This document shows positions 9,306 to 63,739 of a stretch of 64,000 bases of DNA, in pieces. The stretch is from Haloplanus sp. GDY1 (GTDB taxonomy: Archaea > Halobacteriota > Halobacteria > Halobacteriales > Haloferacaceae): contig NZ_CP098514.1 of assembly GCF_023703775.1 (NCBI RefSeq), positions 1,302,001 through 1,366,000 on the forward strand, read 5' to 3'. The notes under the pieces were generated by a model. That model ran no database searches. It had not been told where the DNA came from and saw nothing but the letters and a program-made list of their open reading frames with translations. The translations under genes and the position numbers were made by a program. Each line of letters opens with the position of its first letter. Position 1 is the first letter of the stretch.

Positions 9306-10616
9306 ATGGCACACCCACCCGCGCAGGCCCGTGCGGACGCGATCCCGCACTGGTACGGCGACGACGACGTACTGACGCTCGTCGACGGCGACGGCGTCAC
9401 CGTCTACGACGACGAGGGCGACGCGTATCTCGACTTCATCTCACAGCTCTACTGTGTCAACGCGGGCCACGGCGAGGACCGGATCGTCGACGCCATCACG
9501 GAACAGGCGTCGAAGCTCTCCTACGTCGCCTCGTCGAAGGGAAACGACGCGCGGTCGGCGCTCGCCGCCCGGATCGCCGACGTCGCGCCCGGCGACCTCG
9601 GCGACGTCTACTTCTCGGTCTCCGGGAGCGAGGCCAACGAGTCCGCCGTCCAGTTCGCGCGGGAGTTCACCGGCGGGCGGAAGGTGCTCACGCGCTACCG
9701 GTCGTACCACGGCGCGACCTACGGCGCGGCCTCGCTGACGGGCGATCCGGAGACGCGGAACGCGATGGGGCGGCAGGCCGAGACGACCGGCGCGGCGAAG
9801 TTCCTGCCGCCGCTGACTCACCACTCGCCGTTCGACGGTGACACGCCCGAGGAGGTCGCCCGACAGGCCGCCGATCACCTGGAGTACGTGATCCACAACG
9901 AGGGGCCGGACTCCGTGGCGGCGGTCCTGATGGAACCCGTCGGCGGGACCAGCGGCGCGTATCCGGCACCGGCGGACTACTGGCAGCGCGTGCGCGACGT
10001 GTGTGACGAGTACGGCGTCCTCCTGATCGCGGACGAGGTGATCACCGGCTTCGGCCGGTGTGGCGAGTGGTTCGGCATCGAGACCGAGGACGTGGTGCCG
10101 GATCTCCTCACCTTCGCCAAGGGGGCGACGAGCGCGTACGTCCCGCTCGCGGGCGTGATCACGAGCCCCGAACTCTCCGCTCACCTCCACGATTCGGGGA
10201 TCGACGTGGGCCAGACCTTCGCCGGCCACCCGCTCGCGTGTGCCGCGGGCGTGGCGGCCATGGACGTCTACGCGGACGGCCTGATCGAGAACGCGCGGGC
10301 CCGGAGCGCCCACCTCGAATCGCGCCTGCGGGACCTCGACGCCCACGACGCCGTCGGCGACGTGCGCGGCCGCGGCCTGCTGTGGGCCGTCGAGTTCACC
10401 GATCCCGAGACGGGCGATCCCTTCCATCACCCATGGATCGAGTCGGGGGACAACCCCGTCGACGACGTGATCGACGAGGCCGAACGGCGGGGCGTCCTCG
10501 TCGGTGGCGGCCGGCCGCGCACCCAGGTCGTCGTCGCGCCGCCGCTCCCGGTGACCGACGCGGAGATCGACACGGCGGTCGACGCACTCGACGAGGCCAT
10601 CGCGGCGGTCTTCTAG
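9306..10616 (+). CDS. Class III (omega-type) PLP-dependent aminotransferase
   Basis: 436 residues. The PLP lysine is Lys272 in LLTFAKGATSAY; the cofactor Asp is in LLIADEVITGFGR; the phosphate-binding SGSEANESAVQFAR lies near residue 105. FISQLYCVNAGHG and YRSYHGATYGAAS are typical of the beta-alanine/omega-amino acid:pyruvate aminotransferase branch. It transfers an omega- or alpha-amino group to a 2-oxoacid; the exact substrate is not deducible. It follows gltX by 40 bp on the same strand with TTTATTTTTGCC just before the start, which could be its own TATA box. Confidence 0.88.
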   Translation: MAHPPAQARADAIPHWYGDDDVLTLVDGDGVTVYDDEGDAYLDFISQLYCVNAGHGEDRIVDAITEQASKLSYVASSKGNDARSALAARIADVAPGDLGDVYFSVSGSEANESAVQFAREFTGGRKVLTRYRSYHGATYGAASLTGDPETRNAMGRQAETTGAAKFLPPLTHHSPFDGDTPEEVARQAADHLEYVIHNEGPDSVAAVLMEPVGGTSGAYPAPADYWQRVRDVCDEYGVLLIADEVITGFGRCGEWFGIETEDVVPDLLTFAKGATSAYVPLAGVITSPELSAHLHDSGIDVGQTFAGHPLACAAGVAAMDVYADGLIENARARSAHLESRLRDLDAHDAVGDVRGRGLLWAVEFTDPETGDPFHHPWIESGDNPVDDVIDEAERRGVLVGGGRPRTQVVVAPPLPVTDAEIDTAVDALDEAIAAVF

Positions 10617-11038
10617 CCGGGCGTCGCAGGGAGGTCCCAGCGGCGACCCGAAGCCCCGTCGGCGTTGGAGGATCGCGACGTCGACGCACTCGGCGAACTT
10701 GACGGCTACTGGATCTGCTCGCACTCGGGCCGAGCCGACGGTCTCGACGAGTGTCACGTCGTCAATCTGACGGGGATCACGTCAGGGAGAACGGGAAGAA
10801 CGTCTTCTCACGTGGTACGAGCCGAGGGAGTACGACGGGAGGAGAGCCGGCACACTCCTCGACCTGGTCACCCACGCCGGAGCCCGGCGTGAACCGCCTC
10901 GGGGTCAAGCCCCGAGGCACTCGCCTCGTCTCTTCTGTAGAAGACTGGAACCGGGCAGAGCAGCCGCTCGCGTTCACGTTTCGGTAGTGAAGCGCGTTCG
11001 AGAGGCCGTAAAACCCCCCGAAACACTTATTTTCAGAG
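10617..11038. other. Intergenic stretch with probable mobile-element debris
   Basis: About 420 bp without an intact gene. The 5' half has short frames (for example 10665-10892, reading ELDGYWICSHSGRADGLDE) with no recognised family. Around 10890-10960 there are two hairpins in a row, described separately. The final 60 bp before 11039 are the 3' flank of the tRNA-Trp gene and contain an AT-rich stretch (ACACTTATTTTCAG) that could end its transcript. Confidence 0.4.
10896..10918. repeat. Perfect 9-bp stem hairpin, possible IS200/IS605 end remnant
   Basis: GCCTCGGGG (10896-10904), loop TCAAG, CCCCGAGGC (10910-10918). The context GTGAACC before and ACTCGCCTCG after resembles, from memory, the sub-terminal hairpin of haloarchaeal IS200/IS605-type elements. 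A second small hairpin, TCTTC-TGTA-GAAGA, follows at about 10931-10944. No transposase or TnpB fragment is recognisable beside it, so it may be an element scar or a terminator-like structure. Confidence 0.4.
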
Positions 11039-11215
11039 TGGGGTTGGAGGGATTTGAACCCCCGATCGACTGATATCTCCGGTTGCGCCTCGGTACTCCA
11101 GAGGGTCGTCGTCGCGCGGCGATGATCAGTCGCGCGCTCGGTATATCAGTCTGGAGTGTCGTCACCGGGCGTGGCCTCTGGAGTCAGTCGCCATGCCGGG
11201 CTTGGCCACAACCCC
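11039..11215 (-). tRNA. trnW: tRNA-Trp (CCA) with 103-nt intron
   Basis: Exon 1 is 11178-11215 and exon 2 is 11039-11074. Acceptor stem GGGGTTG/CAACCCC, D arm GCCA...TGGC, anticodon stem ACTGA/TCAGT, loop CTCCAGA with anticodon CCA, T arm with TTCAAAT loop, discriminator A. The intron (11075-11177) sits after position 37, the canonical archaeal site, and is 103 nt. Its segment complementary to 11095-11104 pairs perfectly with ACTCCAGAGG across the exon 1/intron border, consistent with the bulge-helix-bulge splice fold. A TATA-like TTTACC on the minus strand (near 11243) precedes the 5' end by about 30 bp. CCA is not encoded. Confidence 0.95.
11075..11177 (-). ncRNA. Box C/D guide RNA embedded in the tRNA-Trp intron
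   Basis: Haloarchaeal tRNA-Trp introns are known box C/D guides for 2'-O-methylation of C34 and U39 of their own pre-tRNA. Here a box C-like GTGACGA lies near the 5' end of the intron. The guide CCTCTGGAGT (complement of 11095-11104) is followed after one nt by a box D-like CCGA. By the box D +5 rule the methylated base would be C34. A second stretch, CGACTGAT, is complementary to the region around U39. Confidence 0.8.
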
Positions 11216-23398: not shown

Positions 23399-26182
23399 TC
23401 AGTCCTCCTCGCCCCCGCCCTCGGCGTCGGTCACGTCGCCGAAGCCCCACTCGTCGATGTCGGCCTCGGCGTCCGCATCCGGTGCGTCGTCGCCGGGGGG
23501 CGCTCCGGCGCTCCCGCTCTCACCGGCGTCCGGGGACGACTCATCGGCGCCCCCGGACGCCCCGTCGGCGTCGCCAGATGAATCCAGCGAGACGCCGTCA
23601 ACGTCGGCGTCGTCGGCGGACTCCCCCCACTCGTCGTCGAGCGAGCCGCCCCCGTCGTCGAAGGAGATGCCGAACTCGTCGTCCGCGAACGGGTCGTCCC
23701 CGTCGGGGGCGGCGTCGTCGGTGCCCGTCGTCCGGTCGTCGTCGCCCGCGGCGTCGGCGTCGGACTCCGCGGCCGGGGGTCCCCCGGGCTCGGACCGGGG
23801 CGTCACGTCCGCGGCCGCGTCCATCCCCGCCAGCGCGGCGTCGATGCCCGCCACGTCCTCGCCGCGGTACGCCTCGAACAGTTCGGACTCGGCCCGGTCG
23901 AGGATGTCCGCACACAGGTCCAGGGCCGCCTCGTTCGGGTCGGGACGGGGCACCATCGCCTCCTTCTCCGGGTCGATGTCGATCAGGACCGACTCCATCT
24001 CCCGAAGGTCCTCGAGGCTGCGTTCGAGGCGTCCCTCGGCCATGAGCGCGAGGATGGTCTCCTCGTCGTTGATGAACGCCTGCACCGTGGCGGCGACCTG
24101 CGTGTAAGTGTTGAGGCCGTTCTCGATGAGGTACGCGAGGACGACCTGTCGCTTGAACAGTTCCTCCTCCAGAGTGGCCCGGGTCCACCCGCGGTCGAAG
24201 CGGATCTCCTCCAGGGTGTTGGAGTCGCTCATCCGGAGGAACTCGTCGGTCTCGGCCTGCCACTGGTAGACGTCCTGAACGTTGATCTCGTCGTTCTCGG
24301 CGTCGTAGAAGTTGATCTCGGTGAGGTTCTTGTTCCGGCGAACCTTCCGCCCTCCGACCCTGGTCTGGGTCTGGATGGAGACCAGATCGAGGGCCGTGAA
24401 CATGGTCTTCGAGACGTTGATCGGCTCGGTGGTGAAGCGCTTCAGCACCTCGCCCACGGAGTCGGCGTGGAAGGTCGTCAGCGTGGTGTGCCCGGTCGAC
24501 ATGACCTGAAAGAGGGTGCGCCCCTCCTCGCCGCGGATCTCGCCCATGACGATGTACTCGGGGCGCTGGCGGAGCGCGGCCTCCAGCAGGTCGAACTCGT
24601 CGACCTCGCCCTGTTCGTCGTCGGAGAACGAGGGCCTGGTGACCGAGGCCACCCAGTTGCGCTGGGGGAGTTCCACCTCGCGGGTGTCCTCGATGGAGAC
24701 GATCTTCGAGTTCGAGGGGATGAAAAGCGAGACGGCGTTCAGGCTGGTCGTCTTCCCCGACGCCGTGCCGCCGGCGAAGATGAGTGACTTGTTGTTCTCG
24801 ATGGCCAGCCAGAGGTACGCCATCTCCTCCAGCGAGAACGTCTTCCAGTTGATGAGGTCGACGGGCGTGAAGGGGACGTCCTTGAACTGGCGGATGGTGT
24901 AGTTGGTGCCGTGGTCCGAGACCTCCTCCCCAAGGGTCAGTTGCGCCCGGGAGCCGTCGGGGAGCGTGGCGTCGACCTGGGGACGGCGCTTGCTGATGCC
25001 CTTGCCCGACCGCTGGGCGAGTTTGACGACGAAGTCGTCGAGTTCGTCGTCGTCGTGGTAGACGTTGGAGATGATCTGCTCGTAGTCGCTGTGGTAGACG
25101 AAGACGGGCGAGTGGTAGCCGTCACACGAGATGTCCTCGACGTTGATGTCGTGTTTGATGGCGTCGATGCGCTCGTAGCCGATGAAGTCCCGCTTGAGGT
25201 AGTAGAGCAGCTTCTCGACCTGGTACTCCGAGAGGTTCTCGGGGTCCTCCTCGACGACGGCGGGTTCGGGCCGGGCCGCGAGCCCGGCGAGTTCCTCGTC
25301 GGCCTCGCTCTCGGGCTGCCAGCCGAGCCTGGAGAGGAGTCGGCCGGCGGTGCCGTCCGCGTCCTCGACGCCGAGCTGGGTGGCGATGGTATCGAGCAGG
25401 CCGGACCCCGAGGTGCGGGCGTAGAGGTCGTACCGTTCGAGGAGGGCGTACGTCTCGTCGCGGATCACCCGCTCGCGTTCCTCGAGGCCGCCGGCGACCC
25501 CCACGTCGGCGTACTTGATCGCGTTCTGAAGCTTGGCCGTCAGGAAGTCGACCAGGTCGTCCTCGATCGGCGTCGTGTGGGGCTGGACGACGTAGTACTT
25601 CCGCTCGTTTTCCTTCAGCGAGCGGAAGATGACGACGAAGGCGTACGGTTTGTTCACCCAGTAGCGGTCCACCTCGACGAAGTGCGTCTTCTTCTCCAGG
25701 GGGACGGTCTTCTCCAAGTCGTAGCGGTTGGCGACAGTCGTCGTGCCGAACTCGGTGGTGAAGAAGGCGTCCTCGTCGAGTTCGTCGTCGACCGAGACGG
25801 TCCGCTCCTCGATCACGTCGGCGAGTTCGGCGGCGCGGTCGGCGGCCCCCGACAGCACGTGCTCCGTCCGGTCGGGGTCGAACCCGAGCGTGTCGGTGGG
25901 ATCGAAGGGGATCGGCTCCCCGTCCTCGTCGGTCGGCGGGGTCCCGTCCGCGTCGTAGTAGAACTCCTCCTTGTAGTCCGCCCACGACCAGAGGTCCTTG
26001 ACGACCGGCGTCCCGTCCGCCCGTGCCCGCGAAATCGCCCCGTCGAGCCGCGTCGCCGCGGTGGCGCCCGCGGCGAGCAGTTCGGGCAGCGTCGCGGATC
26101 CGAGTTCCCCGCGACCCGGGCCGACTGGCGCCGCGCCGTCGAGCCCCCCCGACTCGGAGCCCTCGGCGTCGTCGATAGCCAT
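23399..26182 (-). CDS. Type II/IV secretion system ATPase (TadA/GspE-like) with acidic tail
   Basis: 927 residues from ATG 26182 (MAIDDAEGSES). Walker A AGGTASGKTTSLNA near residue 475; Asp box EDTREVELPQRNW; Walker B ALRQRPEYIVMGEIRGEE; His box FQVMSTGHTTLTTFHAD. A large N-terminal region of about 400 residues precedes the core. The last 150 residues are extremely acidic and Gly/Ser-rich (DDPFADDEFGISFDDGG), unusual for the family. The hexameric ATPase drives subunit extraction and assembly through the TadC-like protein. It is the first gene of the operon; the promoter lies in 26183-26318, which has an AT-rich TTCCCGAATATAAAC. Confidence 0.92.
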   Translation of the reverse strand: MAIDDAEGSESGGLDGAAPVGPGRGELGSATLPELLAAGATAATRLDGAISRARADGTPVVKDLWSWADYKEEFYYDADGTPPTDEDGEPIPFDPTDTLGFDPDRTEHVLSGAADRAAELADVIEERTVSVDDELDEDAFFTTEFGTTTVANRYDLEKTVPLEKKTHFVEVDRYWVNKPYAFVVIFRSLKENERKYYVVQPHTTPIEDDLVDFLTAKLQNAIKYADVGVAGGLEERERVIRDETYALLERYDLYARTSGSGLLDTIATQLGVEDADGTAGRLLSRLGWQPESEADEELAGLAARPEPAVVEEDPENLSEYQVEKLLYYLKRDFIGYERIDAIKHDINVEDISCDGYHSPVFVYHSDYEQIISNVYHDDDELDDFVVKLAQRSGKGISKRRPQVDATLPDGSRAQLTLGEEVSDHGTNYTIRQFKDVPFTPVDLINWKTFSLEEMAYLWLAIENNKSLIFAGGTASGKTTSLNAVSLFIPSNSKIVSIEDTREVELPQRNWVASVTRPSFSDDEQGEVDEFDLLEAALRQRPEYIVMGEIRGEEGRTLFQVMSTGHTTLTTFHADSVGEVLKRFTTEPINVSKTMFTALDLVSIQTQTRVGGRKVRRNKNLTEINFYDAENDEINVQDVYQWQAETDEFLRMSDSNTLEEIRFDRGWTRATLEEELFKRQVVLAYLIENGLNTYTQVAATVQAFINDEETILALMAEGRLERSLEDLREMESVLIDIDPEKEAMVPRPDPNEAALDLCADILDRAESELFEAYRGEDVAGIDAALAGMDAAADVTPRSEPGGPPAAESDADAAGDDDRTTGTDDAAPDGDDPFADDEFGISFDDGGGSLDDEWGESADDADVDGVSLDSSGDADGASGGADESSPDAGESGSAGAPPGDDAPDADAEADIDEWGFGDVTDAEGGGEED

Positions 26183-46274: not shown

Positions 46275-46972
46275 GGTCGCGTTAAGTTAGCGTGAAGAGT
46301 GAGGCGTGCTGATTTCTAAGTTGTTCATGCCCGAAATCAGCCGCCTCAGCGATGGTAGCGACTGGATCGAATTAGATTTTGTGGAGCGTCAGCGGACACC
46401 CGAGTTCGCGATGCGGCTCGGTATTCAGATGCATGTGGCGGGATTATCACTTTCGAATACCATCTCGATTCTTGAAAGGTTGGGTGTCGAACGATCTCGA
46501 ACGGCCGTTCACAACTGGGTGCAGAAGGCCGATCTACAGCCCGAAGGCGGTGCGAGCCCGAATCACGTTGCACTCGACGAAACTGTGATTCGAATCAACG
46601 ATCAGCAATACTGGCTGTACGCCGCCATCGATCCTGAAACGAACACATTCCTTCATATCCGGCTCTTTAGCACGTATACGACCGGTCTAACCGAAATTTT
46701 CCTGAGCGAATTACGCGAGAAACACGATGTCGAAACCGCCGTGTTTCTCGTCGATGGCGCCAAACATCTCCAAACTGCTCTCAATCGACACGGCCTCGAT
46801 TGCAGATACGAACTCCATGGCAATCGGAATGCTGTCGAACGTATCTTTAGAGAAGTAAAACGACGAACCTCTTCGTTTTCAAATACGTTTAGCCACGTGG
46901 AGCCGACGACCGCAGAATCGTGGCTCCAAGCCCTCGCCGTCTGGTGGAATCGATGCCAAAGTTAACGCGACC
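46275..46972 (+). mobile_element. IS6-family insertion sequence, 698 bp, with 8-bp target duplication
   Basis: The left end GGTCGCGTTAAGTT and the inverted right end GGTCGCGTTAACTT match at 13 of 14 positions. Direct repeats GTCGATCC flank both sides (46267-46274 and 46973-46980), the 8-bp duplication typical of IS6. One intact transposase gene inside, lower in GC than the surroundings. The perfect target duplication points to a recent insertion. It lies in the divergent promoter region between the PAS/GAF regulator and the SPFH gene, whose own presumed promoter (CCCTTTTGCC near 46988) remains. Confidence 0.93.
46306..46965 (+). CDS. IS6-family transposase
   Basis: 219 residues from GTG 46306, or 212 from the ATG at 46327 (MPEISRLSDGSDW), which fits known haloarchaeal relatives. 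DDE residues: Asp in HVALDETVIR, Asp in VFLVDGAKHL, and Glu in NAVERIFREVKRRTSSF. N-terminal HTH LGIQMHVAGLSLSNTISILERLGVERSRTAVHNWVQKAD. Complete length for the family and no frameshift, so probably active. Confidence 0.95.
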   Translation: MLISKLFMPEISRLSDGSDWIELDFVERQRTPEFAMRLGIQMHVAGLSLSNTISILERLGVERSRTAVHNWVQKADLQPEGGASPNHVALDETVIRINDQQYWLYAAIDPETNTFLHIRLFSTYTTGLTEIFLSELREKHDVETAVFLVDGAKHLQTALNRHGLDCRYELHGNRNAVERIFREVKRRTSSFSNTFSHVEPTTAESWLQALAVWWNRCQS

Positions 46973-52813: not shown

Positions 52814-52874
52814 CCGCCGACCGTCGACGATCCGTCGAGCGGGGGTCGTCGCGCCGGGGTCGCCTCGGCCCCGC

Positions 52875-53006
52875 GTCGCCTCCGCACCGCCTCCGCACCG
52901 CCTCCACACCGCCTCCGCGTCGCCTCCGCACCGCCTCCACACCGCCTCCGCGTCGCCTCCGCGTCGCCTCCGCGTCGCCTCCGCGTCGCCTCCGCACCGC
53001 CTCCGC
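52875..53006. repeat. 11-bp minisatellite, 12 units, abutting the cetZ stop codon
   Basis: Twelve full head-to-tail units of RYCGCCTCCRC, with a thirteenth partial unit running into the cetZ stop at 53013. Units vary only between GT and AC at the first two bases and G or A at the tenth. The order of variants shows patches (four consecutive GT units), as left by slippage. It occupies most of the 199-bp gap between two convergent genes. No spacers, so it is not a CRISPR array. Confidence 0.9.
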
Positions 53007-53012
53007 ACCGCC

Positions 53013-54095
53013 TCAGAGCAGGCCGTCGATCCGTTCCTCTTCGAACGCCGACGCGGCGCTTTGCTCCTCGTTCGCCTCCTCCTCGCGGGCGGCCTGCCGG
53101 GCGCGTTCGAGGAAGCCGTCGAGGCGATCGGAGTCCGCCACGCCGCCGAGCAAGACGAGGGCGGCGAGTCGGTCGTCGGCCATCGGGAAGTCGCCGCCGC
53201 GGACCTCCATGGTGTCGAGTTCGGTCTCCAGCCACGAGCGGGCGCGCTCGACGCCCTTCCGGGAGATGGCCTCGGGGCGGCCGGCGACGACCAGCAGTCC
53301 GCGCTCGGCGCTCGTCGTGTCCGGGAGGCTCAGGCCGGACCTGATCGCCCGACGGGTGGTGCTCGTGACGACGTTGACGTTCGCGCCCGCGTCGCCCGAC
53401 GCCTCCGCGGCGGCGTAGCCGAGGGTCGCGACACCGACGCCGCGGAGCGTGTTTATCACCTCGGAGCTGTCGACGACGGACTCGCCGACGCCGTCGACGG
53501 CCTCCCCGGCCGCGAGGAGGAGGCCGACCCGGCGGGCGATGCGCTCGTTGATCGCCTCGTAGCCGGATTCGAGGCTCTCGCCCGACGACCGCCAGGCGTC
53601 GTTGTCGACCAGCAGCGTGGCGTCGGCCTCGCGGGTCAGCGTCTTCAGCGACCGCCCGGCGTTCACCTGGTAGAGCGAGCCCTCGTCGCGGCCGGGGAGG
53701 ATGCCGAGACCGTAGACGGGGACGTCGTAGACCCGCTTGAGTTCCTTGACGAGGTAGGGTGCGCCGCCGCTCCCGGTGCCGCCACCGAGGCCCGCGACGA
53801 CGAAGATGGCCTCGGCGTGGGCGGTCACCCGGCCGTCGATGGCACCCAGTACCTCCTGGATGTCCTCCTGCATCACCTCCGTGCCGAGTTCGTTGTCGCC
53901 GCCGACGCCGTGGCCGTTCACCCGCGAGCCACCGATGAGGACCGTATCGAGGGGGAGGGACTGGAGGTCGGAGCGCGCGCTGTTGACCGCGAGCGATCCG
54001 ATGATCGCACCGAACCCGTTCCGCGCGTCGAAATCGGACAGGGCGTCGACGACCTTGCCGCCGGCCTGTCCGACACCAATCAGGACGGACTTCAT
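53013..54095 (-). CDS. cetZ: Tubulin/FtsZ-superfamily protein CetZ
   Basis: 360 residues from ATG 54095 (MKSVLIGVGQAGGKVVDALSDF). Tubulin GTP-binding signature GLGGGTGSGGAP at 103-113 and an N-terminal GQAGGK. The T7 region is represented by ESVVDSSEVINTLRGVGV, a divergent text with the acidic residue. C-terminal tail EEERIDGLL. CetZ proteins control haloarchaeal cell shape and motility; the assignment to a CetZ subgroup is not possible here. It is transcribed divergently from the second pilus-like operon, with 115 bp between starts. Confidence 0.92.
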   Translation of the reverse strand: MKSVLIGVGQAGGKVVDALSDFDARNGFGAIIGSLAVNSARSDLQSLPLDTVLIGGSRVNGHGVGGDNELGTEVMQEDIQEVLGAIDGRVTAHAEAIFVVAGLGGGTGSGGAPYLVKELKRVYDVPVYGLGILPGRDEGSLYQVNAGRSLKTLTREADATLLVDNDAWRSSGESLESGYEAINERIARRVGLLLAAGEAVDGVGESVVDSSEVINTLRGVGVATLGYAAAEASGDAGANVNVVTSTTRRAIRSGLSLPDTTSAERGLLVVAGRPEAISRKGVERARSWLETELDTMEVRGGDFPMADDRLAALVLLGGVADSDRLDGFLERARQAAREEEANEEQSAASAFEEERIDGLL

Positions 54096-54210: not shown

Positions 54211-54870
54211 ATGGACGACGCCCTCGACGAACGCGTCGACGCACTCGAACGCGCACTGACCGACGGTCACGCCGCCGACGGCCTCCCCGAGGCCGCCCGA
54301 ACGGCGTCCCGGGTGGACGAACTCGAGGCGACCGTCGAGGAGTTGGACGACCGACTGGCGGAACTGGAGGCCGCGGTGCAGGCCCTCCGCGGGTTCGCAG
54401 GCGGCGTCGACGCCGTCGACGAGGCGGTGGAGCGGCGGGCGAACGCCGCCATCGCCCGCGTCGAACGCCTCGAAGCCGAGGTTCGGGAAGGGGAGCGAGG
54501 ACGCCCCCGAAACCCCGACGAGACGCCGACCCGGCCGGGCGAACGCGACACCGACGGCCGGATCGCGCCCGGGAAGCGCGCGACCCGCCGCGGCGACTCC
54601 GACCCCGATCCCACGCGTCCCGACGGCGACCGGCCGTCGCCGAACCCCGACTCCGGGACGGCCGACGGTCGGCACGCCGGGGAACGGGCGGAGGCCCCGT
54701 CGGCCGCGAACGGGGCGCGAGGCGGGGCCGACGACCCGGGGAGGGCCACGCTCGCGGCGGCCGCCGCCGACACGGCGCGGGCCGAACTGGCGGCCGAGGG
54801 ATCGACCCCGGAGCCCGACGACGGGACGTCGGAGGCCACGCTGGCCGAGCGGATCCGTCGGTTGCTGTGA
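54211..54870 (+). CDS. Coiled-coil protein of the second pilus operon (DUF7310-like)
   Basis: 219 residues from ATG 54211; an ATG at 54190 is less likely because CTTTAGG near 54179 is a TATA-like element about 30 bp before the chosen start. Two parts: an N-terminal coiled coil (ERVDALERALTDG, VDELEATVEELDDRLAELEAAVQAL) with a helical hairpin, then a long disordered acidic/Arg/Pro linker, then EATLAERIRRLL. No TM. Its stop overlaps the next start by 4 nt (GTGA). Name DUF7310 from memory; possible cytoplasmic adaptor for the ATPase. Confidence 0.75.
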   Translation: MDDALDERVDALERALTDGHAADGLPEAARTASRVDELEATVEELDDRLAELEAAVQALRGFAGGVDAVDEAVERRANAAIARVERLEAEVREGERGRPRNPDETPTRPGERDTDGRIAPGKRATRRGDSDPDPTRPDGDRPSPNPDSGTADGRHAGERAEAPSAANGARGGADDPGRATLAAAAADTARAELAAEGSTPEPDDGTSEATLAERIRRLL

Positions 54871-55301
54871 TCCGCGTCGTCCTCTCGGTCCTGCTGGCGG
54901 TGGCGCTGCTCGCCGTCGCCGTTCCGGGCGTCGACGAGGGACGACGGGCGCGAACGGCGACGGAACTCGGTGGGGTCACGGACCGAGTCGAACGCGCCGT
55001 CCGCTCGCTGCTGGCGCGGGAGGACCCCACCCGACCGGGCGTGACGGGCGCGCGACGGATCGTCCGCTATCGCCTCCCGTCCCGATCCTGGGTGGCCGCG
55101 GGCGCGACCCTGCGGATCGACGGCGACCGGGACCGCATCGGCTACCGGATCGGCGATCGGCCCCCACGGTGGCGGCCGCTCCCCGGGGTCGACCTCCGGA
55201 CCCCCTCGGGACCCGTCGTCGTCGAGCGCCCGGGGCGACACCGGCTCGTCGTCTCGCTCGTCCGCGATGACGGCGTCGGGGTCGTCGTCTCCCGGGGCTG
55301 A
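54867..55301 (+). CDS. Single-TM protein (DUF7311-like)
   Basis: 144 residues, GTG start overlapping the previous stop. An N-terminal TM helix (IRVVLSVLLAVALLAVAVPGVDEGRRART) is followed by a beta-rich exterior (RRIVRYRLPSRSWVAAGATLRIDG, GRHRLVVSLVRDDGVGVVVSRG). It looks like a small pseudopilin or a pilus-biogenesis accessory. It belongs to the compact operon with the ATPase that starts 34 bp later. Family name from memory. Confidence 0.75.
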   Translation: MIRVVLSVLLAVALLAVAVPGVDEGRRARTATELGGVTDRVERAVRSLLAREDPTRPGVTGARRIVRYRLPSRSWVAAGATLRIDGDRDRIGYRIGDRPPRWRPLPGVDLRTPSGPVVVERPGRHRLVVSLVRDDGVGVVVSRG

Positions 55302-55334
55302 GGTTCAAGGGTGATCGGGGGGCCAAGCCGCCGC

Positions 55335-57242
55335 ATGCGCGTACTGGACCGACTGCGGAACGAGGGGGACGGCGACGGAACCGCTTGCCGCTGCGAGCCG
55401 ACGGTGCGGTCGCCGCCCGGGAGCGACCCCGAGGGCGGCGCCACGCTCGCGGTCGACGCCGACGACTGCCCCGAGGACGGCGAGCTGGCGACGAGTCCCG
55501 ACTGTCGGGAGACGGTGATCGACGCGCTCGCCGACCGGGCGGTCGACGCCGTCCACGTCACGACCGACGGCCGCGAGCGCGTCTACGACGACGGCGCGGT
55601 GGCGCTGCTGGTCGCGGCTGGGCGGTTCGCCGCCCGCGTCGCCGTCCACGACGAGACGCTGGCCGAGCGGGCGCGACGCGACCCGCTGGGCGCCGCGCGC
55701 GCCGCGACCGGCCGCGCCGGACCGGTGTCGAGGCTGGCCGCCGACACGGGACTGGCCGCCGGCGCCGACCGGGTCGACGGCTACGAGGCGGCGCTCGGGG
55801 CGACCGTCGGGCCGGCGGTTGCCGACGCGCGACTGACGGCGAGTCCGCCGCCCGACGCGTCGCTCGTGGGGCGGCGTGACCTCGATACGGGCGCGACGGT
55901 GCGGCGATACCGCACGGCTCGCGGCGGCCACTACCACCTCGACCCGCCGGGGTGGCGACTGGACGCGGCCGAACTGGCGACGCTGGCCGACGCCCGCGAC
56001 CGACTGGCGGCCGGGGCGGGAGCGGGCGACGACCGGGCGGTCGCCCGTGCCGTCCGGGCCGTGGACGCCCGGGACGAAACGGTGTCGAAGGCGGCGGTGG
56101 AGCGCGTCCTCAGACGGCACACCCGCGGCCACGGGCTGCTGGAGGACCTGTTCGCCGACCCGCGGGTGTCGGAGGTACTGGTCACCGCGCCGGTGGCCGA
56201 CAACCCGGTTCGCGTATCCGTCGACGGAACGCGACTGCCGACGAACGTCCACCTGACCCGGAGCGGGGCCGCGGCGCTGGCCTCCCGGTTCCGGCGGGAG
56301 AGCGGGCGCGCCTTCTCGCGGGCGTCCCCGACGATAGACGCCACGACGGAGGCCGAGGGCGAGCGCGTCCGCGTCGCCGGCGTGACCGACCCGGCGAGCG
56401 ACGGCTACGGGTTCGCCTTCCGGACGGGTGGGCGGGACGTGTGGACGCTTCCGGCGCTCGTCGCCAACGGGACGCTCCCGGCCGACGCCGCGGCCCTCTG
56501 TTCGGTCGCCGTCGAGCGCGCCGGCGCGGGGTTGGTCGCCGGGCCGCGCGGCGCCGGGAAGACGACGCTCCTCTCGGCGCTCCTCTGGGAGTTGCCGCCG
56601 TCGACCCGGACCGTCGTCGTCGAGGACACGCCCGAACTCCCGGCAGCGAGGCTCTGCGACGCCGGCCGGGACGTGCAGCCGATCCGCGTCGAGGCCGACG
56701 ACGGACCGGCGCTCTCCGCGGCGGAGGCGCTGCGGACCGCGCTCCGCCTCGGCGAGGGGGCGCTGGTCGTCGGCGAGGTTCGGGGCGAGGAGGCCGCGAC
56801 GCTCTACGAGGCGATGCGGGTCGGGGCGGCCAGCAGCGCCGTCCTGGGAACCATCCACGGCGACGGCGCCGACGCTGCCTTCGAGCGGGTGGTGACCGAC
56901 CTCGGCGTGCCCGCGTCGTCGTTCGCGGCGACCGACTTCCTCGTGACCCTCGCCGCCGGCGAGCGCCGACACGTGGCGAGCATCGAGGAGGTTCGCGACG
57001 CCGAGTCGGAGGTCGCCTTCGAGTCGCTGTTCGAACCCGGAGCCGACGGCACCGAACCGACCGGCGTCGTCGACCGGGGGAACAGCCGCCTCGTCGCGTC
57101 GCTCGCTCGGCCGGACGAGTCCTACGCGGACGTGCTGGACCTGCTCGACGGGCGCGCAGCGCTCCTGTCGGACCTCGCGGAGACCGACCGCACCGACCCG
57201 GAGGCGGTCGATGCGGCCCACCGCGAACGGGTGGCGAAATGA
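55335..57242 (+). CDS. Type II/IV secretion system ATPase, second system
   Basis: 635 residues from ATG 55335 (MRVLDRLRNEGDGDG). N-terminal half degenerate, with a CxC pair early (TACRCEP) and Cys at DDCPEDG and PDCRET, perhaps zinc binding. ATPase core: DPRVSEVLVTAP, Walker A AGPRGAGKTTLLSALL near 402-417, EDTPELPAARLCDAG, Walker B-like RLGEGALVVGEVRGEEAATLYEAM, and His box VLGTIHGDGADAAFERV. Shorter than the 927-residue ATPase of the first locus and without its acidic tail. Overlaps the TadC-like gene by 4 nt. Confidence 0.9.
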   Translation: MRVLDRLRNEGDGDGTACRCEPTVRSPPGSDPEGGATLAVDADDCPEDGELATSPDCRETVIDALADRAVDAVHVTTDGRERVYDDGAVALLVAAGRFAARVAVHDETLAERARRDPLGAARAATGRAGPVSRLAADTGLAAGADRVDGYEAALGATVGPAVADARLTASPPPDASLVGRRDLDTGATVRRYRTARGGHYHLDPPGWRLDAAELATLADARDRLAAGAGAGDDRAVARAVRAVDARDETVSKAAVERVLRRHTRGHGLLEDLFADPRVSEVLVTAPVADNPVRVSVDGTRLPTNVHLTRSGAAALASRFRRESGRAFSRASPTIDATTEAEGERVRVAGVTDPASDGYGFAFRTGGRDVWTLPALVANGTLPADAAALCSVAVERAGAGLVAGPRGAGKTTLLSALLWELPPSTRTVVVEDTPELPAARLCDAGRDVQPIRVEADDGPALSAAEALRTALRLGEGALVVGEVRGEEAATLYEAMRVGAASSAVLGTIHGDGADAAFERVVTDLGVPASSFAATDFLVTLAAGERRHVASIEEVRDAESEVAFESLFEPGADGTEPTGVVDRGNSRLVASLARPDESYADVLDLLDGRAALLSDLAETDRTDPEAVDAAHRERVAK

Positions 57243-58966
57243 GCGACCCGTCGTCGCTCCTCCGGACTCTCGCCGCGGCGTGGCCGTGGTCGACGACGGC
57301 GGATCCGGCCCTCGACGGGGCGCTCGCGTATCTCGGCCTCCCGACCGACGCCGCGACGGTGGACGGCGCGGCGCGGGTCGTCGGGACGCTGCTCGGTGCC
57401 GCCGCCGTGGCCCTCGGCGCGGCGGTGAGCGTCGCGACCACGCCTCGGTGGGGCGCCGTCGTCGCGACCGCCGGGGCGGCGCTCGGGGCGGGACTGCCAC
57501 TCGCCGCGAACCGCCTCCCGCGACTGGCGGCGCGACTGGCCCGCACGCGGGCGCTCGGATCGGCCGCGGCGCTGGTCGGACGGGCCGCGATGTGTTTGCG
57601 CATCGATCCGACGGTCGAGCGGGCGGCTGCCTTCGCCGCCCGAACGGGGAACGGCGCGCTCGCCCGGAGCCTCGACGAGCACGTGGGCCGTGCGGAGGGA
57701 ACGCCCCGGAGCGGGTTCGAGCGCTTCGCCGACGAGTGGAGCGAGGGGTTCCCGGCGCTCTCCCGCGCCGCCTCGCGGCTGGAGGCCGCGGCGGCGGCGC
57801 CCGCCGACGAGCGCGACCGGCACCTCGACCGCGCCGTCGCGGCGGCTCTGGAGGGCGCCCGGGACGAACTGGCGGCCTTCACGAGCGAGATCAGAGGCCC
57901 CGTCACGGGGCTGTACGCATTCGGCGTCCTCCTGCCGCTGGCGCTGGTCGGCGTCCTTCCGGCGGCGCGAGCGACGGGCGTGCGTGTCTCCCTCCCGCTC
58001 GTCGTCGGCCTCTACGACGTCGCGCTCCCCGTCGTGGTCGTCGGTGCGGGGACGTGGCTGCTCGCCCGCCGGCCGGTCGCCTTCCCGCCGCCGCGAATCG
58101 GGGCTGATCACCCGGACACCCCGAACCGTCGACTGGGCGGGGTCGCCGCCGGCGTTGGCGCCGGTGCCGTCGGGGCCGTCGTCGCTGCGAGAGCGGTGGC
58201 GCCGTGGGCGACGCCGGTCGCCGCCCTCGGCCTCGGGACCGGCACGGCGCTCGTGGTCCACTTCCGTTCGGCCAAGCGGGTCCGGGAGCGAGTGCGCGCG
58301 ACCGAGGAGGGCCTCCACGACGCCCTGTATCTGGTCGGGCGGCGGGTCGCGGCCGGCGAAGCCGTGGAGGTGGCCATCGCGGAGGCGGCCGGGCGGGTCG
58401 ACGGCGCGACGGGTGACCTCCTCGACGAGGCCGCGGGCCGGCAGCGACGCCTCGGGCTCCCGGTGAGGGAGGCGTTCCGGGGCGAGGCGGGACCGCTGTC
58501 GACCCTGCCGAGTCGTCGGGTCGAGGGGATGGCGACCCTCCTCGGCCTCGCGGCGACGGAGGGTCGACCGGCGGGCGACGCACTCGTGGCGACGGCGGAA
58601 CACGTCGAGGAACTCCGGCGCGTCGAGCGCGAGGCGCGTCGGGAACTGTCGCGGGTGACCGACACGCTCACCAACACCGCGGCCGTCTTCGGCCCGCTGG
58701 TCGGGGGTGCGACGGTCGCGCTCTCTGATCGCGTCGCCGGGACGGGAGCGAGCGCCGGCTTCGGCGCCGGCCCGCTCCCGACGGCCGCTCTCGGCGTCGC
58801 GGTCGGTGCCTACGTCCTGTGGCTCGCGGCCGCGCTGACGGTTCTCTCGACGGGGTTGACGCGCGGACTCGACCGGACGCTCGTCGGCTATCGCGTCGGC
58901 GCGGCGCTGTGTCTCGCGACCGTCGCGTACTGCTCGGCGTACGTCGGCGCCGGCCTGTTCCTGTGA
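57239..58966 (+). CDS. TadC/GspF-like membrane protein, second system
   Basis: 575 residues from ATG 57239 overlapping the ATPase stop. Two T2SSF-like halves: one around GRAAMCLRIDPTVERAAAFAARTGNGALARSL, the second around RSAKRVRERVRATEEGLHDALYLVGRRVAAGEAVEVAI. Six or more TM helices (VGTLLGAAAVALGAAVSVA, LYAFGVLLPLALVGVLP, PLVVGLYDVALPVVVVGAGTWLL, VAVGAYVLWLAAALTVLS). Very Ala/Arg-rich. The platform partner of the second ATPase. Confidence 0.88.
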   Translation: MSDPSSLLRTLAAAWPWSTTADPALDGALAYLGLPTDAATVDGAARVVGTLLGAAAVALGAAVSVATTPRWGAVVATAGAALGAGLPLAANRLPRLAARLARTRALGSAAALVGRAAMCLRIDPTVERAAAFAARTGNGALARSLDEHVGRAEGTPRSGFERFADEWSEGFPALSRAASRLEAAAAAPADERDRHLDRAVAAALEGARDELAAFTSEIRGPVTGLYAFGVLLPLALVGVLPAARATGVRVSLPLVVGLYDVALPVVVVGAGTWLLARRPVAFPPPRIGADHPDTPNRRLGGVAAGVGAGAVGAVVAARAVAPWATPVAALGLGTGTALVVHFRSAKRVRERVRATEEGLHDALYLVGRRVAAGEAVEVAIAEAAGRVDGATGDLLDEAAGRQRRLGLPVREAFRGEAGPLSTLPSRRVEGMATLLGLAATEGRPAGDALVATAEHVEELRRVEREARRELSRVTDTLTNTAAVFGPLVGGATVALSDRVAGTGASAGFGAGPLPTAALGVAVGAYVLWLAAALTVLSTGLTRGLDRTLVGYRVGAALCLATVAYCSAYVGAGLFL

Positions 58967-59000
58967 GGATTCAAGTGCGGTGACGAGGTCACCCCGACCC

Positions 59001-59468
59001 ATGTTCGACGTTCCCGTCGACGCCTGGTACGCCTGGCTCGGCCTGTCGCTCGCGAGTGTCGCGCTGTTCGGCGTCGGGGTGACGCTCCCGACGTCGCCGC
59101 CGCCGGCCGCCGCGGACGCGGCGGACACGGTCGACCGAGCGGCCGGAGCCGCCGCACCCGTGACCGCGGAACACCCGCTGGACGCACGGGAGGTCCGGAT
59201 CGAGCCGACCCGTCTCGGCCTCCGAAACGACGCCGGCACCACGCACGCGACGTTCGCGTTCGGGCCGGTGACGCCGGCCGCCAGGAGGCCGGGGCTGACC
59301 GCCGTGCTCCGCGGCGCGCCGCCATCCTCGCGGTTCGACTCGGCCGGGGCGCTCTGTGCGGCCGCCTCGACGGCACGCGACCGCCCCGCTCGATGGCGGA
59401 AGGTCGACGGCCCGCTGATCGTCCGCCGCGTCGTCTGGGAGGGGTGCGATGTCACGCTCGTCGCGTAG
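59001..59468 (+). CDS. Pseudopilin-like protein (DUF7283-like)
   Basis: 155 residues from ATG 59001 (MFDVPVDAWYAWLGLSLASVALFGVGVTLP). One N-terminal TM helix with a short leader. The exterior is compact, with two Cys (GALCAAAS, VWEGCDVTLVA) that may pair. Its end overlaps the next gene by 20 bp. Probable minor subunit of the second system. Family name from memory. Confidence 0.75.
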   Translation: MFDVPVDAWYAWLGLSLASVALFGVGVTLPTSPPPAAADAADTVDRAAGAAAPVTAEHPLDAREVRIEPTRLGLRNDAGTTHATFAFGPVTPAARRPGLTAVLRGAPPSSRFDSAGALCAAASTARDRPARWRKVDGPLIVRRVVWEGCDVTLVA

Positions 59469-59841
59469 GGGGCAGGTCGAACCGCTGGCCGCACTCGTGG
59501 TGCTCCTGGCGGTGACCGGAGCCGTGACGACGTACGCTGCGGCGCTCGATGGCGTCGGTCGAGAGGCCGACAGGGACCTCGCGACGCCGACACTCGACCG
59601 CGTCGCGTCGGCGCTCGGAACCGGCGGCGTCGCCGATCCGAACCGGACGCGACGCGCCCACCGTGCCGGACCGTCGGGGTACCGCCTGAACGTCACCGTC
59701 GCCGCGGCGGGTCGGCGGTGGACGGCGGGACCGGCCCCGCCACGGGACGGGCGAGCCGACGCGGCGAGTCGGTCGATCGGCGTCCGCCTGGAGCCGGGAC
59801 GGGTCCGTCCCGGTCGCCTCCGGGTGGAGGTGTGGACGTGA
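59449..59841 (+). CDS. Pseudopilin-like protein (DUF7285-like)
   Basis: 130 residues. Start MSRSSRRGQVEPLAALVVLLAVTGAVTTYAAALDGVG: a basic leader, then RGQVEPLAALV, the TadE/TadG-like signature with Glu near the helix start, and one TM helix. Short exterior with an N-glycosylation site (NRTRR, NVTVAA). The ATG lies inside the end of the preceding gene and the stop overlaps the next start by 4 nt. Confidence 0.78.
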   Translation: MSRSSRRGQVEPLAALVVLLAVTGAVTTYAAALDGVGREADRDLATPTLDRVASALGTGGVADPNRTRRAHRAGPSGYRLNVTVAAAGRRWTAGPAPPRDGRADAASRSIGVRLEPGRVRPGRLRVEVWT

Positions 59842-60689
59842 CGAGTACCGTCCTCGACGGGGTACTCTGTCTGCTCCTGATCAGCGCCGCGGTGGTGACG
59901 GTGTCGACGGCGACGCCGCGGGAGCCGACGGGCGAGGGACGCGCCCCCGACGTGGCCTCGACGCTGGCGACGACGACGGCGACGGTGAACTACACGCTCA
60001 CGCCACGCTCCGGGGCGACGAGCGTCGAGGTGCCGACCCGGGCGAGCGCACTCGACCGAACCGCCCACGGGACGCTGGCGGAACTCCTGGCGCGGGCCGC
60101 GGTCGGCCGCCTCGCCGTCGACGGGCGGCGGCTGTCACACGCCCGCGACGGTCTCACTCGGTCGGTCGTCCGTGCGGTCGGGGGGGCGATCCGCACCAAC
60201 CACACGCGGATCACCGCGGTCTGGCGGCCGTCCCCCGACGCCTCGGTGCGCGGACGAGTCGTCGTCGGCGGGCGGCCGCCGCCGGACGTGCCGGTCCACG
60301 CCGCGACGATCACGGCGTCGAGCGGGCTCCCGAACGAGCGGAGTGCGGCCCGGGCCGCCGCAGACGAGCGGGGAATCGAGGGGGTCGCCGACGCCGTCGC
60401 GGGGGGCGTCGTCGACGGCCTGTTCCCGCCGACGCGGACGCGCGTCGCCGCCGGCGGACGGGACGGGGCGGTGTTGCGCCACCGCTATCGCCTCGCCGAG
60501 CGCCGGTTCGGCGTCGAGGAACACGCCAGCCTGACGGACGACGGCGTCGACGCCGCCAACGAGCGGCTGGCAGCCGCGCTCTCGGATCGGATCGAACGGG
60601 ACCTTCGCGAGGCGGACGTCCCGCCGCGTGCGGCGGCCGAGGGGGTCCGCGTCGGTCGGGTTCGGATCGTCGTGAGGACGTGGCCGTGA
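59838..60689 (+). CDS. Pseudopilin-like protein (DUF7284-like)
   Basis: 283 residues from the GTG at 59838, overlapping the previous TGA (GTGA). N-terminal TM helix (STVLDGVLCLLLISAAVVTVSTA). The exterior contains NYTLTPRSG, NHTRITAVW, and SSGLPNERSAARAAADERG, then a long helical part. Like the others, a single TM with most residues outside. The family name is from memory. Confidence 0.75.
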   Translation: MTSTVLDGVLCLLLISAAVVTVSTATPREPTGEGRAPDVASTLATTTATVNYTLTPRSGATSVEVPTRASALDRTAHGTLAELLARAAVGRLAVDGRRLSHARDGLTRSVVRAVGGAIRTNHTRITAVWRPSPDASVRGRVVVGGRPPPDVPVHAATITASSGLPNERSAARAAADERGIEGVADAVAGGVVDGLFPPTRTRVAAGGRDGAVLRHRYRLAERRFGVEEHASLTDDGVDAANERLAAALSDRIERDLREADVPPRAAAEGVRVGRVRIVVRTWP

Positions 60690-63600
60690 CCCGCCTCGCC
60701 GAGGACCGTCGCGGGCGCGTTCCCTTCGCCCTGCTCGGCGTCCTCCTGCTGGTCGGCGCCTCGACGTACGCGGCGACGGTGACCACGCAGGGACCGAGTC
60801 GGATCGACAGGGACGCCGCGGTGGCGATGGAGCGGGCGTCGGCGGGGACGACCGCCGCCCTGCGTTCGGCCGTCGGCGAGGCGGCACGCGCGGCCGCGGC
60901 CGAGCCGGTGACGGCGCCGGCGGAGACGCCGTTCGGACGCCTGTTGAGCGACGACCGTCCGTTCCGGGACGCCCTGCGACTCCGGATCTACCTCACCCTC
61001 CGCGAGCGGTTGCGGGCGACGCGCTACCGGCGCGGATCCGTCCGTGCCGTCGCTGCCCTCCCCGGGGCGACGACGCCGTCCGAACTCCGGCGGGCGATGG
61101 ATCGGGTGCGCGTGGCGGGCGTCGAGAACGGAACGGCGCTTCGGGTGACGGTTCGGAACCTGACGGTGACGGTCCGCGACGGGGAGCGGATCGTCGCCCG
61201 CGAACACCGGACCCGGACGGTGACCGTCTCGACGCCCGTACTCGCGCTTCACGACCGCGCGACGGCGTTCGAACGGCGGCTGAACCGGAGCCCGCTGGAG
61301 GGTTCGGGGCTGGGTCGGCGGCTGACCGCACGGCTCTATCCGGTCGCGTGGGCACGGGGGTACGCTCAGTACGGAGGTGCACCCATCGCCAACGTCGTCG
61401 CGAACCGGCACGTCGAGACGACGACCAACGGCGCCCTCCTCGAAACCCAACGGGCGGTCTTCGGGCGGAGCGACCCGGAAGGTCGAGAGGCGATGCGACG
61501 GGCGGCCCTCGAACTCGGGGTCGAAGACCTGACCGCGGCGACGCCGATCGGATCGGATCGGGCGACGCGCGTCGTTCCGCGACCGAACGCTCGGGTCGAT
61601 CCGTCCTCGGCCCTCCCGACCCGCCGTGGAACGTCGGCGCCGTCTCCGAACCACCGCATCGACGTCGACGTGGCCCCGCTCGCCGGCCGCTCCCTGACCG
61701 GTCTCCGAACGACGTCCATCCGGTCGAACCGGTCGCTCGACGGCGTCACCCGGGCCGCCTATCGGGTCGAGGCGAGGTTGCTGACGCGGAGCCGGCGGAC
61801 GTATCACGAACCCCGTCCGGAGCCCGATCCGCCGGGTGACGGGTGGGAACTGGCCAACACGACGGTAACGACCGACGACGAGGTCGAAGCGACCGTCGCC
61901 GAGCCGCCGACGCCCGCGGCGAACGAGCGCCGATTCGACTCGTTCAGTCGACTCGTCGTCCTCGACCACCGGGTCCGCTGGACGTGGCAGCGCGGGAACG
62001 ACACCCGGGTGTCGAGCGGGGGCTGGCGGGAGCGGTACCGGGTCGGCGTGACGCTCGTTGGGGAGTACGCCCCGGACGGGCCGGCACCGGATCGGCCGAC
62101 CGGACCACTGTTCGAACGGGGCGGGGCGCTCGGCGGGCCGAACCTCGCCGGCGTACCCGAGAAGGCGGTGACGACACTCGTCGATAGGCAGGGCGGCCGC
62201 GACGCGGTGGCGGCGGCCGTCGCCGCCGACGCCCTCGAAGTGACCGAGCGCCCCGTCTACGGTGACCGGCCGTCGGACCTCCGGTCGTGGACCGACCGCG
62301 ACCTGCGGGGGCTCCGGAACCGGCTGTCGAACGTCACCGTCGGCGTCCGGGCGGGAGCCGTGGCGACGTACACCACGAACCCGCCGGGACGGCTGGCGGC
62401 CACCCTCCGCCAGCGGCGCGGGGCGCTGATCGACCCGCCGGGTCGCTATCGGGGTGCCGCGGATCGTGCCCGCGTCGCCGCTCGGGCGGCGCTGGTCGAC
62501 GAGACGATCCGCCGGCTGGACCGCCGTGCGGCGAGACACGCGGAGACCAGGCGGGCGTTCGACGAGGTGCTCGGCCGAGTCGGAATCGACTCCCCGCGAG
62601 CCCTGCGGCGAACTCTCGAAACGAGGACGACGCCGGTGCCGACCCAGCGGGCGGGGATCGACGGGACGCCGCCTGGCGGGAACGTGAGCCCCGTACCGGA
62701 CGGCTCGCCCGCCTACCTCACGGTGACCTCGGTGAGTCACGAGCGGGCACGCGGCGTGCCGCCGGATCGGCCGTACCGCCCGCTGTCCGCGAAGAACGTC
62801 AACCTGTTCACCGCCCCGTACGGCGACGCCGCCGACGCCGTGTCGGGGGCGGCGAGCGACGGATCGTCGGCGGTCCGACTCCGGACGGCCGCGCGGACCC
62901 TCGTCGCGTCCGACGGGGTGAACGGCTCGGTCGACGGGCGGGCGAGCCTCGGGAACGCGGTTTCGACGTCGCTCGACGGCCTGCGTGAGCGCGCACGGGA
63001 CGTCGTCGCGGACGAGACGCGGCTCACGCGGACGGCGGCCGAAGCGGCCGTCGCGGAGGGCTTCGCCAGGTGGGAGGATCCCGGACGACGGGGACTCGCC
63101 GCCGCCAACGGCTCGCTGGCGAGGGCGATAGCCGTCGCGGCCGACCGCCGGGCCGAGGGTCGGGACCCCGACCGGAGGGACCGACTGGAGACACGACTGG
63201 CGGCCGCCTTCGCCGAGGACCTCCGCTCCCCCTCGACGTCGGTCGCACAGGAGCGGGTCGAATCGGTGGTGGAGCGGGTGCGGGGACGCGTCCTGGGCCG
63301 GGCGAGCGACGTGGCGACGAAGCGGCTCTACCGGAAGCGGCTGAACGAGACGGTCGGCGCGGTCCCCGCGGGACTGCCGGTGGCGCCCGTCCCCGGGTAC
63401 TGGTACGCGACGGTGAACGTCTGGGACGTGGAGGTGCGTGGGGCCTACGCCCGGTTCACCCTCCGGACGGACCGGGGTGCGCCGGCCCCTGGAGGGGCGA
63501 CCCGGTACGTCCGCGACGGGTCGGTCGTCCGGCTGGACGTGGACGGCGACGGCAGCCGGGAGCGTCTCGGCCGCGACGAGCGGGTCGACTTCGAGACGGG

Positions 63601-63739
63601 AACGGTCGTCGCCGTGGCGGTGCCGCCGTATCGGACCGGCGTCGGCGACGTGGACGGCAACGCGGACGAACGCTCGGGCACCTGGCCGGAGCCGAAGTGT
63701 ACGTCCTGGGAGGCGAGCGCCTGTCCCCGGTCGGAGTGA
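60686..63739 (+). CDS. Very large pseudopilin-like surface protein (DUF7286-like)
   Basis: 1017 residues from GTG 60686 (overlap GTGA); an in-frame GTG at 60680 adds two residues. N-terminal TM helix DRRGRVPFALLGVLLLVGASTYAATV with a pilin-like RGRVPFALLGV leader. The rest is predicted extracellular: Arg/Ala-rich helical stretches and many Asn-X-Thr sites (NLTVTVRDG, NVTVGVRAG, NETVGAV). It ends after an acidic loop (GDVDGNADERSGTWPEPKCTSWEASACPRSE) with two Cys. By far the biggest subunit of the second system; perhaps its adhesive or tip component. Confidence 0.8.
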   Translation: MTRLAEDRRGRVPFALLGVLLLVGASTYAATVTTQGPSRIDRDAAVAMERASAGTTAALRSAVGEAARAAAAEPVTAPAETPFGRLLSDDRPFRDALRLRIYLTLRERLRATRYRRGSVRAVAALPGATTPSELRRAMDRVRVAGVENGTALRVTVRNLTVTVRDGERIVAREHRTRTVTVSTPVLALHDRATAFERRLNRSPLEGSGLGRRLTARLYPVAWARGYAQYGGAPIANVVANRHVETTTNGALLETQRAVFGRSDPEGREAMRRAALELGVEDLTAATPIGSDRATRVVPRPNARVDPSSALPTRRGTSAPSPNHRIDVDVAPLAGRSLTGLRTTSIRSNRSLDGVTRAAYRVEARLLTRSRRTYHEPRPEPDPPGDGWELANTTVTTDDEVEATVAEPPTPAANERRFDSFSRLVVLDHRVRWTWQRGNDTRVSSGGWRERYRVGVTLVGEYAPDGPAPDRPTGPLFERGGALGGPNLAGVPEKAVTTLVDRQGGRDAVAAAVAADALEVTERPVYGDRPSDLRSWTDRDLRGLRNRLSNVTVGVRAGAVATYTTNPPGRLAATLRQRRGALIDPPGRYRGAADRARVAARAALVDETIRRLDRRAARHAETRRAFDEVLGRVGIDSPRALRRTLETRTTPVPTQRAGIDGTPPGGNVSPVPDGSPAYLTVTSVSHERARGVPPDRPYRPLSAKNVNLFTAPYGDAADAVSGAASDGSSAVRLRTAARTLVASDGVNGSVDGRASLGNAVSTSLDGLRERARDVVADETRLTRTAAEAAVAEGFARWEDPGRRGLAAANGSLARAIAVAADRRAEGRDPDRRDRLETRLAAAFAEDLRSPSTSVAQERVESVVERVRGRVLGRASDVATKRLYRKRLNETVGAVPAGLPVAPVPGYWYATVNVWDVEVRGAYARFTLRTDRGAPAPGGATRYVRDGSVVRLDVDGDGSRERLGRDERVDFETGTVVAVAVPPYRTGVGDVDGNADERSGTWPEPKCTSWEASACPRSE

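Follow-up and report, generated by a model that had tools for sequence, protein, structure and literature searches.

The eight genes on the + strand at 54211-63739 of the 64,000-nt stretch of DNA analysed here (the window) probably encode a haloarchaeal type IV pilus system of subclade 4F, orthologous to the pilB2/pilC2 regulon that lies beside cetZ2 in Haloferax volcanii and building a filament or pseudopilus. The operon is real and well conserved; both Pfam and published computational surveys already list it. An initial annotation had described it as a second, little-characterised pilus-like operon that is neither an archaellum, a characterised adhesion pilus nor a bacterial Tad system, and this description holds. 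Its further claim, that the machine could not be placed, does not, since the gene content, the Cys module of the ATPase, the coiled-coil protein and the CetZ neighbour match those of 4F and pilB2-pilC2-cetZ2 (PMC4858521, PMC9856176). A literature search found no experiment or phenotype for the PilB2 system, and searches for DUF7286, DUF7310, DUF7283 and arCOG07564 returned nothing on it beyond PMC4858521.

The window covers 1302001-1366000 of the main contig of a haloarchaeal genome (G000) whose nearest named relative is Haloplanus. ORF calling in the window recovered all eight genes in a tightly packed array, which mostly overlap by 4 nt, as first described. Such overlaps are present at four of the seven junctions (54867/54870, 57239/57242, 59838/59841 and 60686/60689), with a 20-nt overlap between the DUF7283 and DUF7285 genes (59449/59468) and short gaps of 9 nt (55301/55311) and 13 nt (58966/58980) at the other two. 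The Pfam order is DUF7310, DUF7311, T2SSE, platform, DUF7283, DUF7285, DUF7284 and DUF7286, with a direct match for seven of the eight genes and recognition of the platform through its orthologues only. The first gene (54211..54870; PF23991, 5.2e-26) encodes a cytoplasmic coiled-coil protein with no TM segment by hydropathy, which probably corresponds to arCOG07564, the coiled-coil component described for 4F systems of Halobacteria. It is followed by DUF7311 (54867..55301; PF23993, 5.6e-40), a small protein with a single N-terminal TM segment at residues 4-22, and by the PilB2-type secretion ATPase (55311..57242; T2SSE, PF00437, 2.6e-18), which has an N-terminal CxC-x24-C-x11-C module and again no TM segment by hydropathy. 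The fourth gene (57239..58966) encodes PilC2, a TadC-like multi-TM membrane platform with six strong TM segments, in which T2SSF is recognised in 13 of 23 orthologues (best 3.4e-07). The remaining four genes form a cassette encoding proteins with one N-terminal TM segment each: DUF7283 (58980..59468; PF23954, 3.7e-53), DUF7285 (59449..59841; PF23956, 1.8e-36), DUF7284 (59838..60689; PF23955, 2.3e-84) and DUF7286 (60686..63739; PF23957, 1153 bits). Pfam, orthologues and hydropathy thus bear out the original assignment of a coiled coil, a small one-TM protein, an ATPase, a multi-TM platform and four proteins with single N-terminal TM segments.

The same gene order recurs across dozens of genomes, with proteins that are 34-78% identical, so the arrangement is not due to chance. 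The fine structure of the junctions is also shared: the platform gene overlaps the ATPase gene by 4 nt in 40 of 65 loci, and in 60 of 73 loci the DUF7283 and DUF7285 genes share 20 or 23 nt, in contrast to the usual 4-nt overlaps. Conservation of this longer overlap suggests translational coupling of the two genes or a constraint on the coding of both ends.

All four cassette proteins had been regarded as pseudopilin-like, with RGQVEPL and RGRVPF as candidate prepilin leaders, and a census of orthologues with a FlaFind-like class III pattern upholds part of this view. The DUF7285 leader, RG|QVEP, is a canonical archaeal class III leader and is recognised in 73 of 77 orthologues; the other three proteins, however, lack one. 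In DUF7286 the motif R[AG]R[VI]PFAL is strongly conserved ahead of the TM segment and is class-III-like, but it fails the pattern in every orthologue (0/76) because of an Arg at +1. DUF7283 and DUF7284, the latter a leaderless pilin-like protein with a TSTVLD start, are positive in a minority of orthologues, mostly through matches inside the TM segment. A fair description of the cassette, judged from these N-termini, is one likely prepilin (DUF7285) and three pilin-like proteins with unusual starts; with three of the four pilin candidates lacking a canonical class III leader, a classical pilus made of the cassette proteins is not established. Pfam finds no PilA-type major pilin (PF07790) among the operon proteins; five PilA-type genes and a single prepilin peptidase gene (PF01478) lie elsewhere in the genome.

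The ATPase carries the Walker-type motifs GPRGAGKTT and GEVRGEE of a T2SSE-family protein, and the N-terminal Cys residues that had been noted as lacking in the window's first pilus system are real. They are C26, C28, C53 and C65, which are invariant in an alignment of 47 sequences, and the CxC..C..C motif was not found in the ATPase of the other pilus system. Among haloarchaeal orthologues, 66 of 67 have CxC-x15/24-C-x11-C, a few with other spacings, and the single exception (L058) may be a start-codon error; methanogen-type orthologues have C-x16/20-C-x2-C-x10-C in 10 of 11 cases. An N-terminal Cys-rich domain is frequent in 4F ATPases, and disulphides have been suggested for it (Makarova, PMC4858521). 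The module is probably a metal site instead, since the ATPase is a cytoplasmic protein and the number of conserved Cys residues stays at exactly four while their spacing shifts.

The ATPase has the same fold as archaellum FlaI and archaeal GspE, with FlaI (4ii7) as its best structural match. In a tree of the conserved core of 36 ATPases, cropped around Walker A and built without crenarchaeal clade 4 sequences, the haloarchaeal PilB2-type ATPases form one clade (100/100) that joins the methanogen-type orthologues (100/100) and lies outside both the Sulfolobus acidocaldarius FlaI group and the other haloarchaeal PilB groups, the labels of these groups being inferred. A phylogeny of the ATPase was among the checks that the initial annotation had proposed. 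S. acidocaldarius FlaI itself groups with other haloarchaeal ATPases (97/89) and not with the PilB2 type. The join of the PilB2-type clade to bacterial CpaF is not used, as two long branches meet there, with a risk of artefact. The window's other pilus system has its ATPase at 24359-25000 on the - strand (G000:C1:1326359-1327000), and this one falls in a separate haloarchaeal group, apart from both PilB2 and FlaI.

The archaellum can be rejected as the identity of the operon by this tree and by gene content: it shares a homologous ATPase fold, but the PilB2-type ATPase is outside the FlaI group and Pfam detects neither archaellins nor arl accessory proteins among the operon's products. The comparison with the PilB3/PilC3 adhesion pilus (clade 2) is similar, in that the engine is the same, a secretion ATPase and a platform, but the two ATPases fall in distant groups (labels inferred) and the PilB3 locus encodes no pilins (PMC4858521).

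The largest product of the operon, DUF7286, was correctly given as 1017 aa, there being 1017 codons from the GTG at 60686. It had been said to have no known domain, which is not the case: PF23957 (DUF7286) covers it end to end with 1153 bits, the family being one without known function. The window and Haloferax proteins are about 40% identical. An AlphaFold2 model built with 47 sequences (mean pLDDT 80) comprises, besides the TM helix and a long helix, an alpha/beta domain, very long strands that form a sheet at 360-461, a long helical part and a C-terminal beta domain, and the C-terminal half of the protein is its best conserved part in methanogen-type genomes. Foldseek of the model against the PDB gave no match at E<0.001, the best (SecB, E 0.097) having a TM-score of about 0.06, which is chance, and a profile search of PDB sequences gave one chance hit only. 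DUF7286 is a candidate tip or adhesin subunit.

Of 392 Halobacteria genomes, 300 carry DUF7286, and so do two named controls, H. volcanii and Methanosarcina acetivorans. A scan of named genomes gave 79 loci, of which almost all the full-length ones have the same gene order, including two Haloferax loci (L030 and L035) whose order is identical to that of the window. Four loci (L022, L031, L049 and L079) retain the DUF7283-7286 cassette and the downstream genes, with the motor genes absent from the locus or moved; in these the cassette and the motor behave as separate modules. The association between the two was examined in a sample of 120 genomes of the phylum, with a 4F-type ATPase called at >200 bits. 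ATPase and DUF7286 occur together in 26 genomes, DUF7286 alone in one, the ATPase alone in none, and neither in 93 (Fisher p ~2e-25, uncorrected for shared ancestry); the lone DUF7286-only genome (G012) contains a C-terminal fragment.

Eleven of the 26 genomes lie outside the Halobacteria and are called methanogen-type because M. acetivorans is a positive control and because subclade 4F has been reported in methanogens (PMC4858521). Co-occurrence in these does not depend on linkage: in three that were inspected the ATPase and DUF7286 genes are separated by 0.5 Mb (G402), 1.5 Mb (G448) and about 20 kb (G411). The cassette order is kept in the methanogen-type locus L174, where DUF7285 (3.9e-05), DUF7284 (3.2e-13) and DUF7286 (7.3e-67) are contiguous; ahead of them lie genes for two one-TM proteins and a divergent gene whose product looks like a coiled coil. 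The N-terminal motifs RG-[QV]-[VT]-EP, ST-x-[VL]-D and R[AG]R[VI]PF are common to the methanogen-type and haloarchaeal cassettes. In a methanogen-type motor locus (L177) the ATPase gene comes before genes for a platform-like protein and a one-TM protein that resembles a pilin. Two methanogen-type genomes encode, after the cassette, a secreted-looking protein of ~180-200 aa with the shared motifs N[CG]QEATV and then VGEPFT (L174:10379-10987 and L176:10030-10563), which is a possible extra component; the L174 copy (10379-10987) has no match in Pfam.

The gene divergent from the operon encodes a tubulin-like cytoskeletal GTPase (53013..54095, - strand; CetZ_C 9.6e-63, Tubulin 9.5e-29). Its best PDB match is 4b45 (485.6 bits, against 329.3 bits for 4b46), and since 4B45 is CetZ2 and 4B46 CetZ1 (PMC9856176), the neighbour is CetZ2. 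The ORF extends to 54212, but homology to the solved CetZ begins only at residue 40, so the start is placed at about 54095; this leaves a divergent intergenic region of ~115 bp between cetZ2 and the DUF7310 gene. A type I phosphodiesterase gene lies upstream, and downstream, mostly beyond the window, are a DUF5791-like gene and genes for an NAD epimerase, a DHH protein, an aldo-keto reductase and a glycosyltransferase (names assigned from the sequences by eye). The gene set described around cetZ2 comprises a predicted phosphodiesterase, the hypothetical arCOG04674, the epimerase arCOG03095, an exopolyphosphatase-related protein and a glycosyltransferase (PMC9856176), and it is matched by the flanking genes just named, the aldo-keto reductase aside, with the DUF5791-like gene presumably corresponding to arCOG04674. 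Between the phosphodiesterase gene and cetZ2 there is a GC-rich tandem repeat (window 52859-53014) with 4.2 copies of a 33-bp unit and an 11-bp sub-unit.

A CetZ gene is divergent from and adjacent to the operon in 45 of 63 testable loci. However, it is missing in the other ~29%, with Haloarcula relatives as the main exception, so the adjacency is not obligatory.

Two described systems come closest to the operon. Subclade 4F as defined by Makarova, Koonin and Albers (2016, PMC4858521) has, like the window operon, an ATPase with a Cys-rich N-terminal domain, a platform and several pilin-like proteins; also shared are a coiled-coil protein, described as unique, in the halobacterial locus, an FtsZ-family gene in its context in Halobacteria, and occurrence in methanogens. 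No difference separates the two, the 4F label, as against 4C, resting on these features and on the papers and not on the tree. H. volcanii PilB2 was placed in 4C by Legerme (2019, PMC6491452), but the features that Makarova gives for 4F are those seen in the window operon. The second system, H. volcanii pilB2/pilC2-cetZ2 (Brown and Duggin 2023, PMC9856176), shares with the window the phosphodiesterase, cetZ2, the pilus operon, the epimerase and the glycosyltransferase. The pil-2 locus of Halobacterium salinarum (OE1347R; PMC4292770) is a possible further orthologue.

The most likely mode of action would have the PilB2 ATPase and the PilC2 platform work together in the membrane as an ATP-driven assembly motor, which polymerises a filament or a short pseudopilus. 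The DUF7283-DUF7285-DUF7284-DUF7286 cassette would provide minor pilins or a tip complex, the analogy being with sets of pseudopilins in which one is large, and the large DUF7286 would be located at or near the tip. The major pilin may be encoded elsewhere and supplied in trans, and DUF7310, DUF7311 and CetZ2, on the cytoplasmic and membrane side, may position or regulate the machine.

Alternatively, the structure could be an ordinary adhesion pilus, set apart from the PilB3 system by no more than its minor pilins and regulation, the adjacency of CetZ2 being irrelevant to function. We regard this as a credible reading, with chances somewhat below even. Adhesion is supported by PilB1-C1 as well as by PilB3-C3, with partial cross-complementation between them (PMC6491452), and Makarova proposed the same architecture for clade 2, 4C and 4F systems (PMC4858521). 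The occurrence of the operon without a CetZ neighbour in Haloarcula and others points in the same direction, as does the reported occurrence of cetZ2 regions without the pilus operon (PMC9856176). On the other hand, a very large distance in the tree separates this ATPase clade from other haloarchaeal ATPases, and a conserved cassette of its own sets the operon apart from the PilB3 locus, with its lack of pilin genes.

The cassette, as a set of several minor pilins of which one is very large, resembles the GspH-I-J-K layout. The system might make a secretion pseudopilus, working as a short piston in the manner of type II secretion to export or display proteins; it would end in the DUF7286 complex and would not extend into a long filament. 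The lack of a PilA-type major pilin in the operon would fit such a structure. So would observations in H. volcanii, where delta-pilB3 cells have been used as cells bearing only archaella (PMC13286277), with no PilB2-dependent filament evident; this suggests that any PilB2 filament is absent, short or unexpressed under the conditions of that study. The missing filament may, however, simply reflect a lack of expression. A secretion role also needs identified substrates, of which none is known, and the one-TM pilin-like protein beside the platform at the methanogen-type motor locus counts against it. We consider a secretion pseudopilus unlikely.

The idea that CetZ proteins may scaffold type IV systems has been put forward, and a tubulin homologue adjacent to type IV pilus loci is also reported for the Thermococcales (PMC9856176). 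In addition, deletion of cetZ2 in H. volcanii alters cell length in early biofilm (PMC10606840). A more speculative proposal, to which we attach a low probability, is that the PilB2 system is a cytoskeleton-coupled surface machine, in which CetZ2 and DUF7310 would place or gate a pseudopilus capped by DUF7286 and the ATPase would be switched by a metal or redox signal through the four-Cys module.

That haloarchaea acquired a Tad (tight adherence) locus of bacterial type is highly improbable, and this identity was rejected on scores, tree and gene content. In its favour one could cite a TadA-family model as the best NCBIfam match of the ATPase (TIGR03819, 1.5e-36) and the presence of CpaF/TadA among its closest solved structures. 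However, that match reaches 126 bits against a cut-off of 373, the structure is closer to archaeal FlaI and GspE, neither Pfam nor NCBIfam detects TadZ, a secretin or a Flp pilin family in the operon proteins, and close ATPase orthologues were found only in archaea among the genomes searched.

The subclade 4F, PilB2-type system that we prefer as the identity of the operon is found in most haloarchaea, including the genetically tractable H. volcanii. As far as the literature consulted shows, the present analysis adds the near-universal four-Cys module, the near-perfect co-occurrence of motor and DUF7286 even when they are unlinked, the leader census, the conservation of the cassette order between haloarchaeal and methanogen-type genomes and a DUF7286 without a fold match in the PDB, a subunit of ~1000 aa. 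The results amount to a concrete parts list, and the recurrence of a tubulin homologue beside haloarchaeal type IV pilus loci raises a question that these loci make testable.

Two other features of the window may be recorded. At 11039-11215 on the - strand there is a tRNA gene (Rfam, 46.4 bits; missed by ARAGORN) with an insert of ~107 nt that is probably an intron. Upstream of the operon region, a transposase-like ORF at 46306-46965 coincides with a dip in GC content (0.61).
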